A DNA stretch of 64,000 nt from Dyella silvae. Its GTDB lineage: Bacteria; Pseudomonadota; Gammaproteobacteria; Xanthomonadales; Rhodanobacteraceae. Location: positions 62,001 to 126,000 of the forward strand of contig NZ_JAPJBQ010000007.1 in NCBI RefSeq assembly GCF_026421305.1, given 5' to 3'. This document shows, piece by piece, positions 5,904 to 21,198 of this stretch (the stretch's first letter is position 1; each line of letters starts with the position of its first letter). The position numbers and the translations under genes are program-made. Under the pieces are notes generated by a model. It was not told the DNA's origin, did no database searches, and saw only the letters and a list, made by a program, of their open reading frames with translations.

Positions 5904-5917
5904 ATCACCGTTAGAAT
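5889..5917 (+). promoter_or_regulatory. Sigma-70-type promoter of btuB leader
   Basis: TTGCCC (5889-5894), a 17-base spacer, then TAGAAT (5912-5917). This predicts transcription starting near 5924, right at the 5' edge of the cobalamin aptamer. Confidence 0.55.
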
Positions 5918-5920
5918 TTC

Positions 5921-6130
5921 GTTTGTTCGGGTGTCCCGGGGAGTGTCTTTCCCGGGATGAAACGGGAAGCCGGTGCGCTGTACACACAGCCAGTCCGGCG
6001 CTGCCCCCGCAACGGTAAGCGAGTGAATCCACCAGCGGACGTGATGCCACTGCGCAGAGGCGCGGGAAGGTGTCCGTTGGTGCATGCAGAAGAAGCATGC
6101 CGCTCGCAAGCCCGGAGACCGGCCCGACAC
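5921..6130 (+). ncRNA. Cobalamin (B12) riboswitch
   Basis: Conserved landmarks of the cobalamin aptamer appear in order: GGGATGAAACGGGAAGCCGGTG (5954-5975; the GAA..GGGAA.C.GGTG core), CCCCCGCAACGGTAAGCGAG (B12-box side), ATGCCACTG (6044-6052), GCGGGAAGG (6062-6070) and AAGCCCGGAGACCGGCC (6108-6124). The aptamer lies upstream of btuB, the standard arrangement for B12-repressed uptake. No simple terminator stem or Shine-Dalgarno sequestering helix directly follows; instead a large inverted-repeat element occupies the next 211 bases. Confidence 0.93.
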
Positions 6131-6132
6131 GT

Positions 6133-6343
6133 GGAGCCTGATTCATGTCTCCACGTGGCTTGCGCAGGGAGCTGTTTGCACGCCAGCCAAGGAAGAACGA
6201 AGGAGTGTATGTCGATACACGACTGAGTGATGACGCGGGATGGCGGGCAAACAGACCCTGCCCGAAGGGTTGGAAACCAATGGTCGCTGGAAAGCGGCCA
6301 TTGGTTTCCAACGCGAGCTACGTGGAGACATGAAGCAGGCTCC
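6133..6343. repeat. Nested inverted-repeat (three-way-junction) element
   Basis: The outer 32-base arms at 6133-6164 and 6312-6343 match at 29 of 32 positions as inverted repeats. Inside, a second imperfect pair (6164-6188 with 6236-6260, core CTGTTTGC/GCAAACAG) encloses the small hairpin GTGTAT-GTCG-ATACAC (6205-6220). A separate strong hairpin, GTTGGAAACCAATGG pairing with CCATTGGTTTCCAAC (about 6269-6312), follows. As RNA it would fold into a long stem opening to two arms. It separates the riboswitch from btuB. It resembles a miniature mobile element or a structured RNA; no transposase or clear target duplication is seen. Confidence 0.75.
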
Positions 6344-6479
6344 TTAACGCGTGGCTCGCGGTGGGCGAGGCCGGACGTCGTGCTTTGGCCAAACGCCTGC
6401 CGCCGTTTCCTTCTCCACCGTTTCGCCACGCCCTAAGTCATCTGGGGTAGCGCGAGGGTGCGCGCCCGAAGGAATGTGC

Positions 6480-8378
6480 ATGAAGAAGACTCTGCTGGCA
6501 GCCGCGCTGCTTTCTGCCACCGTGACCGCCTATGCGGCTGAAGCGGATCAGACGCCGTCGCTGTCCACCGTGATTGTCACGGCCACGCGCACGTCGATCA
6601 CCACCGACGAGGCGCTGTCCTCGGTGAGCGTGATCACCCGCGCCGATATCGAGCGCCTGCAGCCTGCCTCGGTACGCGATCTGCTGGTGGGTTTGCCTGG
6701 CGTGTCGTTTGCGCAGTCGGGCGGGCTGGGGCAGCAGAGTTCGCTGTTTCTGCGTGGCACCAACTCCACGCATGTGCTGGTGCTGATCGATGGTGTGCGT
6801 ATCGGCGCGGTGGGCGCGGGCCTGCCGGCGTTCGAGCAGATTCCGGTGGATCAGATCGAGCGCATCGAAATCGTGCGCGGCCCGCGTTCGAGCCTGTACG
6901 GCGCGGATGCGATCGGTGGCGTGATTCAGATCTTCACCCGCCACGGCGCACAAGACGGCAAGCTTGATCCGTCGCTCAGCCTGTCGACCGGCAGCCACAG
7001 CTATGCGGATGGCCACGCGGGCCTCTCCGGTGGCGATTCGCATGCCTGGTTCAACGTGGGCCTGGGTGGCCAGTACACCAGCGGCATCAATGCCTGCCGC
7101 TTGGGCGCAGCCGAGCTGGGCGTGGCCTGCTTTGTGGATCAGCCGGACAACGACGCGTATCGCAACTGGAACGGCATGGCCAATGGCGGCTATCGCTGGG
7201 ACAACGGCACGGAGCTTTCGGCCACCTGGCTGCGCAGCAAGAACTTCGTGGAGTTCGATGGCAGCCCGTATGGCGGCAACCAGGCAGTGAACGAGCAGCA
7301 AGTGGCGGGCGCCAAACTGGCGTTTACGCCGCTCGATCTCTGGAAGGTGACGCTGAACGCGGGACAGAGCCGCGATGATTCCACCACCTATTTCCAGGGT
7401 GTCTACAACGACCCGTTTGCCGGCACCACGACGTACTTCCCGCGCACGCAGGTGGGTCACGCCAATTCGCGCCGCAACCAGGCGTCGTGGCAGAACGATG
7501 TGACGGTGGCCACCGATCAATTGCTGACCGTGGGCGTGGATTACCAGCAGGAACACATCGACAGCGACACCGGCTACCTCAAGAGCACGCGTGAGGACAC
7601 CGGCGTCTACGCGCAGTACATGGGCACGTTCGGCCGCAACGAAGTGCAGCTGTCGGCACGTCACGATCACAACGACCAGTTCGGCAACCACAACACCGGC
7701 GCTGTCGCGTGGGGCTATGCGTTCGACCATGGCCTGCGCGTGTCGGCAAGCTACGGCACGGCGTTCCACGCGCCGACGTTCAACGACGTCTACTATCCGT
7801 TCGGGCTGGGCAACCCCAACCTGAAGCCGGAGACGTCGCGTTCGGGCGAGCTGGGCGTGAGCCAGAAGCAGGACTGGTGGAACTGGGCGGTGAACGTGTA
7901 CCAGACCACCATCAATGACCTGATCGTGCTGGACAGCAATTTCATTCCGCAGAACATCAGCCAGGCGCGTATTCGCGGCCTGGAAGGCCAGTTTGGCGTG
8001 AACGTGGCGGGGTGGCAGGTGCAAAGCTACTTCACGCTGATGCAGCCGAAGAACCGCGAAGGCACGTATGACGGCAACCTGCTGCCGCGCCGCCCCGAGC
8101 AGACGGCGCGCGTGGATGTGGATCGCCGCTTCGATGCTTTCGGTGTCGGCGCGACGTTCTTCGCCTCCGGCAAGGCTTACGACGACCTGGCCAACACGCA
8201 TCGCCTGGGTGGCTACACCACGACCGATCTGCGCGCGAGCTACGACTTCCTGCCCCAGTGGCGTCTGGAAGCCAAGCTGGCCAACGTGTTCGATCGCAAC
8301 TACGAGACGGCGTACTACTACAACCAGCCGGGCCGCACGTGGTATCTGACGGTGCGCTATAGCCCGGCGGTGCGTTGA
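6480..8378 (+). CDS. btuB: TonB-dependent vitamin B12 receptor BtuB
   Basis: 632 residues (E. coli BtuB is 614). The start at ATG 6480 is preferred over ATG 6474 because GAAGGA sits six bases before it and a signal peptide (MKKTLLAAALLSATVTAYA) follows at once. A TonB box-like STVIVTATR comes near residue 30, then a plug domain with SVITRADIERLQP and LFLRGTNSTHVLVLIDGVR, then a 22-strand-type barrel ending in YYNQPGRTWYLTVRYSP. It takes up cobalamin across the outer membrane using TonB energy. Control by the upstream riboswitch is expected. Confidence 0.92.
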   Translation: MKKTLLAAALLSATVTAYAAEADQTPSLSTVIVTATRTSITTDEALSSVSVITRADIERLQPASVRDLLVGLPGVSFAQSGGLGQQSSLFLRGTNSTHVLVLIDGVRIGAVGAGLPAFEQIPVDQIERIEIVRGPRSSLYGADAIGGVIQIFTRHGAQDGKLDPSLSLSTGSHSYADGHAGLSGGDSHAWFNVGLGGQYTSGINACRLGAAELGVACFVDQPDNDAYRNWNGMANGGYRWDNGTELSATWLRSKNFVEFDGSPYGGNQAVNEQQVAGAKLAFTPLDLWKVTLNAGQSRDDSTTYFQGVYNDPFAGTTTYFPRTQVGHANSRRNQASWQNDVTVATDQLLTVGVDYQQEHIDSDTGYLKSTREDTGVYAQYMGTFGRNEVQLSARHDHNDQFGNHNTGAVAWGYAFDHGLRVSASYGTAFHAPTFNDVYYPFGLGNPNLKPETSRSGELGVSQKQDWWNWAVNVYQTTINDLIVLDSNFIPQNISQARIRGLEGQFGVNVAGWQVQSYFTLMQPKNREGTYDGNLLPRRPEQTARVDVDRRFDAFGVGATFFASGKAYDDLANTHRLGGYTTTDLRASYDFLPQWRLEAKLANVFDRNYETAYYYNQPGRTWYLTVRYSPAVR

Positions 8379-8410
8379 GGATTGAAGTGATTTAAAGCAC
8401 AACGGTACCC

Positions 8411-8519
8411 CTCACTGTCATCCCGGCGAAGGCCGGGATCCAGTGCCTTTTGCTTTTGGTGCTCAACGCAAGAGCATCAAAGTCGCTGGATCCCGGCCTT
8501 CGCCGGGATGACGGTGAGG
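8411..8519. repeat. Family A repeat pair (long inverted repeat)
   Basis: Two oppositely oriented copies (8411-8445, 8482-8519) of a 35-base palindromic unit, each with core GGATCCCGG..CCGGGAT, form one long stem-loop after btuB. It probably acts as the btuB transcription barrier. Confidence 0.75.
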
Positions 8520-8522
8520 GGG

Positions 8523-8565
8523 TATGAGCGGTGTGGGGATATGAGCGGTGTGGGTATGAGCGGTG
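8523..8565 (+). repeat. Short tandem repeat
   Basis: About 2.6 copies of a 15-17-base unit beginning ATGAGCGGTGTGGG, directly after the family A repeat. Confidence 0.6.
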
Positions 8566-8660
8566 AGCAAGCACTGCGGGTGCGCGGCACCACACTCATT
8601 CACGCGTTCCATACAAATGGCTCGGCACGGCGTGACTCACGCCTCTGCCAGACAACCCAC

Positions 8661-21059: not shown

Positions 21060-21198
21060 AGCCGCAAACAAAACGTAGCGAGCGGCCGCGAGGTGGGCGT
21101 GGGCGGCGCGCAGGAACCGGAGTGTACGAGTTGTACATGAGGATTCCGAGCACCGACTGCGCCCGCCTCGTGGTCGCGCAGTAGTTTTGTTAGCGGCT
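21060..21198. repeat. Large imperfect palindrome
   Basis: Arms of roughly 45 bases (AGCCGCAAACAAAAC.. against ..GTTTTGTTAGCGGCT, and GGCCGCGAGGTGGGCG against CGCCCGCCTCGTGGTC) continue inward through GGAACC..TGTAC/GTACA..GGATTCC. It fills the gap between the MATE stop and the oxidase. It looks like a dispersed palindromic element; only one copy lies in this window. Confidence 0.6.

Follow-up and report, generated by a model that had tools for sequence, protein, structure and literature searches.

The usual view of bacterial MITEs is that they are insertion sequences in decay, their hairpins being a by-product. Small folded MITEs such as Correia/NEMIS, ERIC and CIR are known, and effects at the RNA level have been described for some of them (accessible parts of PMC2229807 and PMC10969869). 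As far as the accessible part of PMC2229807 goes, the Correia/NEMIS elements of Neisseria and the ERIC/IRU/RU-1 elements of enterobacteria are small and multicopy, carry terminal inverted repeats, duplicate their target and give rise to transcripts that fold as long hairpins. The present study concerns a unit of 209 bp found in the leader of a btuB-like gene of Dyella silvae, within a 64,000-nucleotide stretch of genomic DNA referred to here as the window (Table 1). This unit is probably a non-autonomous, MITE-like mobile element that inserted in the btuB leader and whose hairpins are kept by compensatory change. The family to which it belongs is of more interest than the btuB insertion itself.

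Table 1. The element, its parts and the surrounding leader (positions in the window)
Feature	Position	Strand	Basis or remark
Cobalamin (B12) riboswitch aptamer, btuB leader, outside the element	5912..6141	+	Rfam RF00174, 107.4 bits, E 6.3e-26
Inserted element, 209 bp, GAGCC to GGCTC, short-hairpin-2 form	6134..6342		Bounds from terminal inverted repeats and empty sites
Left terminal inverted repeat / outer stem P1, 5' arm	6134..6164	+	Inverted-repeat search, fold, family alignment
Hairpin 1, family pairing favoured on + strand	6164..6261	+	Fold, strand bias, covariation; model R1 match 6161-6272, 123 bits
Upper hairpin 1: four tandem G.A/A.G motifs with 2, 2 and 1 pairs between, 6-bp closing stem	6191..6234	+	Pair counts in 97 copies, covariation
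Mini hairpin CC-GAA-GG between the two large hairpins	6262..6268	+	Loop classes in the family
Hairpin 2, 44 nt here vs about 99, apical part missing	6269..6312	-	Full-length copies: pairing favoured on - strand
Right terminal inverted repeat / outer stem P1, 3' arm	6312..6342	+	Inverted-repeat search, fold, family alignment
Remainder of btuB leader	6343..6479	+	Continuous with the aptamer in element-free relatives (empty sites L055-L062)
btuB-like TonB-dependent receptor gene	6480..8378	+	Start codon inferred by comparison with relatives

The inverted repeats pointed out in an earlier note on this DNA are real. The outer arms (6133-6164 and 6312-6343) are 32 nt long and 91% complementary, and the nested pair 6164-6188/6236-6260 is present in the computed fold of positions 6125-6350, whose energy of -146.1 kcal/mol compares with -74.8 +/- 5.2 kcal/mol in 200 dinucleotide shuffles (z -13.7), none of them as stable. 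A separate hairpin exists as that note had it, but with arms of 20 nt (6269-6288 and 6293-6312, 95% complementary) instead of 15, and what had been read as a three-way junction turned out to be a four-way one, formed by the outer stem, hairpin 1, the mini hairpin and hairpin 2. The ORFs of 60 aa or more that lie wholly within this copy are two of 62 aa, one per strand; the idea of a transposase-coding element was rejected on these grounds. Membership in a known Rfam family was also rejected, as all matches at the element fell below the gathering scores, both with Rfam 15 in the window and, at permissive E-values, in five own-genome copy loci and six distant loci; most of these sub-gathering matches were to microRNA-type hairpins.

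Other features of the same DNA deserve mention. The downstream receptor gene is one that we take to be btuB. Beyond it, an ORF on the minus strand (8392-8595) contains SSRRRPGSSDF and WIPAFAGMT, peptides of a kind that presumably comes from another common intergenic inverted repeat. Positions 21063-21138 of the minus strand match the Xanthomonas small RNA sX9 of Rfam (76.3 bits), and elsewhere in the genome (G000:C18:20669-20736) a second stretch, of 68 bases, resembles the B12 aptamer in part (76%).

The element is multicopy and dispersed. A covariance model found 19 copies in the genome, the window copy included, and blastn retrieved 18 besides the query; three of the copies (L012, L013 and L014) are 97.7-98.9% identical at unrelated sites. 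When another copy (L005) was used to search 60 relatives, it matched 25, namely 17 of the 19 from the same genus and 8 of the 17 from other genera of the family, with no match in the 24 from other families of the order. Among the matches listed, the named carriers are Dyella, Rhodanobacter, Fulvimonas, Lysobacter, Luteimonas, Xanthomonas and Pseudoxanthomonas, and plasmids of Halomonas, Azotobacter and Methylophaga are carriers as well; plasmid and phage collections searched with L005 gave no match, nor did viral contigs searched with two exact motif patterns. The family shows no sign of a transposase gene: besides the two short ORFs mentioned above, 138 of the 188 pooled copies, all seeded by hairpin 1 so that elements without it were missed, measure 265-266 bp. 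The window copy is shortened and lacks upper hairpin 2. The stems of distant copies are unrelated in their letters and similar in length. In Dyella sp. ASV24, the contigs carrying L101, L139 and L148 end inside hairpin 2 in adapter-like sequence followed by poly-G. We take this sequence to be sequencing adapter, and the ends look like an assembly artefact, a long palindrome having stopped assembly.

The sites themselves bear marks of insertion. In a search of 20 genomes, the btuB leader was recognisable in eight others of the genus (the remainder matched other riboswitches), and all eight lack the element, with for example GACACGTAACGG at the insertion place. A second site is the start of rsmH, which was matched in 117 of 117 genomes: among the 30 loci fetched, one carries the element in full, flanked left and right by TGA, two (L223 and L231) retain a short remnant, and one is a variant without the core. 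Genome G017 also has the element at rsmH (L046). In L202/L042 the element lies a few bases after the rsmH start codon and, as we read the sequence, its right arm brings a new ATG in the rsmH frame, so that the start may come from the insertion. An exact 3-bp duplication flanks 30 of 187 copies, about 12 being expected by arithmetic from the separate left and right counts, and is TNA in 28 of the 30; at shifted offsets 0-5 of 188 show one. Target duplication and clean empty sites (btuB, rsmH) are therefore found for the family, the window copy itself being without an intact duplication. The ends of the family read GRGCCTG...CAGGCYC and form the terminal inverted repeats of a 31-bp outer stem. 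Taken together, the 19 dispersed copies, the empty orthologous sites and the TNA duplications argue that the element is mobile and does not belong to the riboswitch, and they bear out one of the two readings offered in the earlier note, that of a miniature mobile element that entered the leader and was tolerated. The element is not part of the B12 switch.

One could envision that an IS5-family transposase supplied in trans moved the element. A relative, G021, has an 816-bp IS (locus L084) with ends GGGCCTGTTAACACTA and GGGCGTGTTAACACTA, and the element copy L104 begins with GGGCCTGTTAACACTA as well. This IS is the one candidate for an autonomous element with ends in common, none having been found in the own genome. 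Its ends came to light on a second inspection of the screened loci, and it is the source of the one match above cut-off to PF13340 among 37 genomes; with its DUF4096, it is presumably IS427/IS1031-like. A scripted examination of 33 loci for a matching GRGCCTG-like end pair returned none, and the weak look-alike L311 has different ends; those of L319 begin GGGGCTGTCATCAATTG or GGGCGTGTCATCAATTG, near the element copy L048 (GGGCGTGTCATCAATCC). No hairpins were detected at the ends of the G021 IS (z 0.9 and -0.8 against simple shuffles; no match there to the hairpin-1 model R1). PF01609 matched 38 of 78 genomes of the family, but none of the five of the genus among them. Current mobility in the own genome is uncertain, because no IS5-type transposase was found there with PF01609 or PF13340.

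Comparison shows that the stems are kept paired in the family by compensatory change. From 75 hairpin-1 sequences picked, 54 entered one alignment and 51 the covariation alignment. In these 51, 94.0% of cells are paired (81.9% after shuffling), 212 cells are double-changed (57.5), changes on both sides occur in 23 pairs (12.7) and covariation scores 0.363 (0.138), with 0 of 500 shuffles in each case. The earlier note had named compensatory base changes, in relatives carrying the sequence only at btuB, as the sign of a fixed riboswitch part, a test that in this form fails to tell the two cases apart. Compensatory change is indeed strong, but it is seen across dispersed copies, not btuB leaders, and the fold is therefore constrained as a property of the element family, not of the riboswitch. 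Pair counts were made in 97 full-length copies, with hairpin 2 readable in 87. In upper hairpin 1, all eight tandem G.A/A.G positions have their commonest form in 81-97 of the 97; two pairs between the G.A steps switch between G-C and A-T (50 and 31 copies; 42 and 38), and another is standard in just 75. Of the 147 mini-hairpin loops that could be read (188 copies), 129 are GNA or TNC. An interpretation of the loop classes UNCG and GNAG as an RNA sign was dropped: GNA is the reverse complement of TNC, and the loop tells neither strand nor molecule.

Pairing also differs between strands. One-sided changes to G.T or A.C were counted in 52 independent nearest pairs (of 68; 151 of the 188 copies used): hairpin 1 has a GT:AC ratio of 52:15 (p 6.5e-6), hairpin 2 one of 24:115 (p 1.9e-15) and the outer stem, with no bias, one of 44:42. 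A first count had given 29:3, 10:52 and 19:14, respectively. The MFE is lower on the plus strand for hairpin 1 in 124 of 127 copies and on the minus strand for hairpin 2 in all 127, the outer stem being neutral (60 of 127). Mutational bias is an unlikely cause, because unpaired positions show no reversal between the halves (A/G versus C/T differences, 80:28 on the left and 73:35 on the right). These ratios suggest that the two hairpins are read on opposite strands, each inward, with G.U on the plus strand in hairpin 1 and on the minus strand in hairpin 2.

By approximate gene calls, made with a home-made codon-usage caller, the gene context is <E< in 84 and >E> in 40 of 178 cases, so that tandem contexts account for 124 of 178; right-hand genes facing the element lie at a median distance of 3 bp (n = 98, same caller). 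In hairpin 1 the GT:AC ratio is 39:11 in <E< and 22:8 in >E>, and in hairpin 2 the AC:GT ratio is 75:10 and 39:11. Other mismatches are more frequent in >E> than in <E< copies (4.4% versus 1.0% in hairpin 2, 4.1% versus 2.1% in hairpin 1). An effect of the copies on host mRNA ends is possible, given their position near gene ends in tandem contexts.

Copies occupying the same site in different genomes offer a view of what happens to a resident element. Nineteen such pairs were found, and in the 16 of comparable length, some with a member in common, 104 Watson-Crick pairs are doubly changed versus 137 changed on one side. These double changes were dropped as proof that selection acts on resident copies, since 10 of the 19 pairs include an element whose best-scoring match is a copy at some other site and not its partner. 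The filter is soft: a shortened copy, with a bit score that cannot be compared, is present in 3 of the 10 excluded pairs, and the margin is narrow in several; the clear cases are L147/L283 and L152/L270. Repeated insertion at one target, conversion between copies or, partly, the effect of shortened copies may account for such better matches. In the outer stem, the nine remaining, vertical pairs show 1 double and 13 single changes versus 68 and 69 in 37 different-site pairs (Fisher p 0.0033). Eight of the nine have 32 one-sided and 4 doubled changes. The ninth, L260/L275, shows 12 double changes, all in hairpin 2, at a conserved site: the hairpin-2 arms are wholly different yet complementary, the outer stem is nearly identical and hairpin 1 similar. 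The closest other arms in the pool are alike in only 17 and 15 of 24 letters; were both arms replaced in one go? Hairpin 2 has no strand bias in the nine vertical pairs (A.C 4, G.T 3, few events) and a bias of 26:6 over all same-site pairs. It seems, then, that a resident copy decays by changes on single sides of its stems and that paired change accompanies spread, L260/L275 being the exception; different-site pairs may, however, simply be older than vertical pairs.

The hairpin-1 model R1 found matches in 52 of the 250 genomes searched in the order and in 37 of the 369 searched in the class, the latter spread over 31 of 272 genera, with the own genome included in each count; these counts are lower bounds, few candidates per genome having been scored. 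Elsewhere in the 64-kb window its best score was 13.4 bits. The class-wide matches were suspected of being unrelated hairpins, the sequence pattern occurring in 2 of 39 loci; alignment of six distant matches reveals a conserved motif, CAAGG..GA..GAG.G and GA.CGA..GA..ACG, together with CCCNNNGGGTTG. In 22 of the 39 distant loci there is a further R1 match on the opposite strand, about 99 bp from the first and facing it, and the facing hairpins have a central CCCNNNGGG in common. The G.U:A.C ratio in the distant loci is 83:7 in 41 first hairpins and 37:1 in 23 second hairpins, in sequences found and aligned by a model that itself favours standard pairs and G.U. R1 gives no match to hairpin 2 of the window copy, which is short, or, at E 0.01, to hairpin 2 of other own-genome copies. 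From the matches to both strands in those 22 loci, hairpin 2 appears to be a counterpart that faces hairpin 1, and the element resembles two hairpins in inverted arrangement that are both read inward and have tandem G.A pairs. It is tempting to speculate, with somewhat less than even confidence, that the Gammaproteobacteria harbor an undescribed mobile family built as an inverted pair of tandem-G.A hairpins, each functional as a folded strand that is read inward from its end, in which the fold and not the stem sequence is handed on. If true, the ends of such a mobile element would consist of RNA (or single-stranded DNA) structures, not duplex binding sites.

These observations bear on several alternative explanations. 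The second reading of the earlier note, that the fold is a fixed part of B12 control and acts as expression platform of the btuB riboswitch, is hardly credible. The element does begin at the 3' edge of the aptamer and its fold is very stable (z -13.7), but the presence of the same element at 18 other places in the genome contradicts this role, and a platform conserved with its aptamer is not what the eight element-free leaders show. Moreover, in folds of the leader predicted with B12 left out of the model, the element does not pair with the sequence outside it (0.00), 96.8 of the 121.7 expected pairs outside the element are common to the joined, element-free leader, and the mean accessibility of the start region is 0.48 with and without the element. 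The element is thus predicted to fold as a closed domain, and tolerance of the insertion by the leader is plausible on these three figures; it might be tolerated because the closed domain leaves aptamer and downstream leader side by side. Alternatively, the host might retain copies because they act as RNA at the ends of its genes, as terminators, RNA stabilisers or processing sites, with selection acting on resident copies. We consider this unlikely, despite the proximity to gene ends, the non-random orientation of the copies, the greater share of other mismatches in both hairpins of >E> copies, the 104 doubly changed Watson-Crick pairs at common sites and the 12 changed pairs of L260/L275. 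Effects on mRNA have been described for the MITEs NEMIS and ERIC (accessible part of PMC2229807), in line with such a role. However, the wobble bias has the same direction whichever way the flanking genes run (its difference in size left aside), eight vertical pairs mostly show one-sided changes, and TNA targets match the stop codons TAA and TGA, which is enough by itself to place copies there.

It could also be that the selected form is DNA, hairpins being extruded on the 5' strand at each end and recognised during transposition. This explanation commands a substantial, if minor, share of our confidence. Its symmetry, with the 5' strand used at both ends, is that of transposon ends, and it agrees with the outer stem having no strand bias and with loop classes that are mutual reverse complements. 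GNA triloops, besides, are very stable in DNA. On the other hand, the likely partner IS has no end hairpins, and the excess of G.U over A.C in distant copies (83:7 and 37:1, under a model favouring G.U) fits RNA most directly; the mini-hairpin loop fits both molecules. Finally, the palindromes could be maintained by mutation, through template switching or gene conversion between arms or copies, in the absence of any selection on the fold. Outer-stem arms that change in matched pairs between sites and hardly at all in the nine vertical pairs, and the hairpin-2 arms of L260 and L275, which differ en bloc while most of the remainder is alike, are what such a process might leave behind. Yet such a process gives no reason for wobble-strand preferences that are opposite in the two hairpins, and that unpaired positions do not mirror, nor does it account for the near-invariant unpaired tandem G.A positions, and we regard it as improbable. 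Returning to the mobile element with inward-read hairpins, each end would be a module that must fold as a single strand, either as RNA from transcription entering the element or as single-stranded DNA, and it is the element's own spread, more than any host gene, that would profit from this folding.

At the level of the locus, the insertion provides a natural case of a riboswitch leader with 209 nt inserted between aptamer and gene. At the level of the family, the hairpins show compensatory evolution and opposite strand preferences in the two halves, and in distant families both halves match one model. These features of the family make a long-standing question testable, namely whether small mobile elements need a folded strand and, if so, as RNA or as DNA.

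No description of the family was found in the open literature searched, including by end sequence. By the features tested the element is MITE-like, and it is set apart from Correia/NEMIS and CIR by their descriptions. The IS5-family IS with DUF4096 (L084) has the terminal GGGCCTGTTAACACTA in common with element copy L104; it encodes a transposase and has no end hairpins, whereas the reverse is true of the element family. In CIR of Caulobacter and Brucella, according to the accessible part of PMC2229807, a linker connects two arms that are formed by two long inverted repeats, a plan also seen here; CIR is listed there without terminal inverted repeats, whereas in the present family an outer stem and a mini hairpin join the arms, a distinction made by description. 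The R0, R1, R2 and R6 repeats of Pseudomonas fluorescens, also a gammaproteobacterium, resemble the family in being MITE-like, with long inverted ends and a non-random location at gene ends; compared by description, they measure 80-177 bp, as opposed to mostly 265-266 bp here, and the largest SBW25 families have a Tail-repeat-Tail bias where tandem contexts dominate in ours (124 of 178) (accessible part of PMC2718517). ERIC occurs in E. coli (PMC2229807, same part), and the distant copy L386, the one query by which ERIC was judged, had no blastn match in an E. coli collection of 20,395 records. As described in the accessible part of PMC2229807, Correia/NEMIS and ERIC share with the element family its small size, multiple copies, terminal inverted repeats and target duplication, at about 100-200 bp versus mostly 265-266 bp; what sets the element family apart from their description there is that its two hairpins face each other, that pairing is strand-specific and that G.A motifs occur in tandem.
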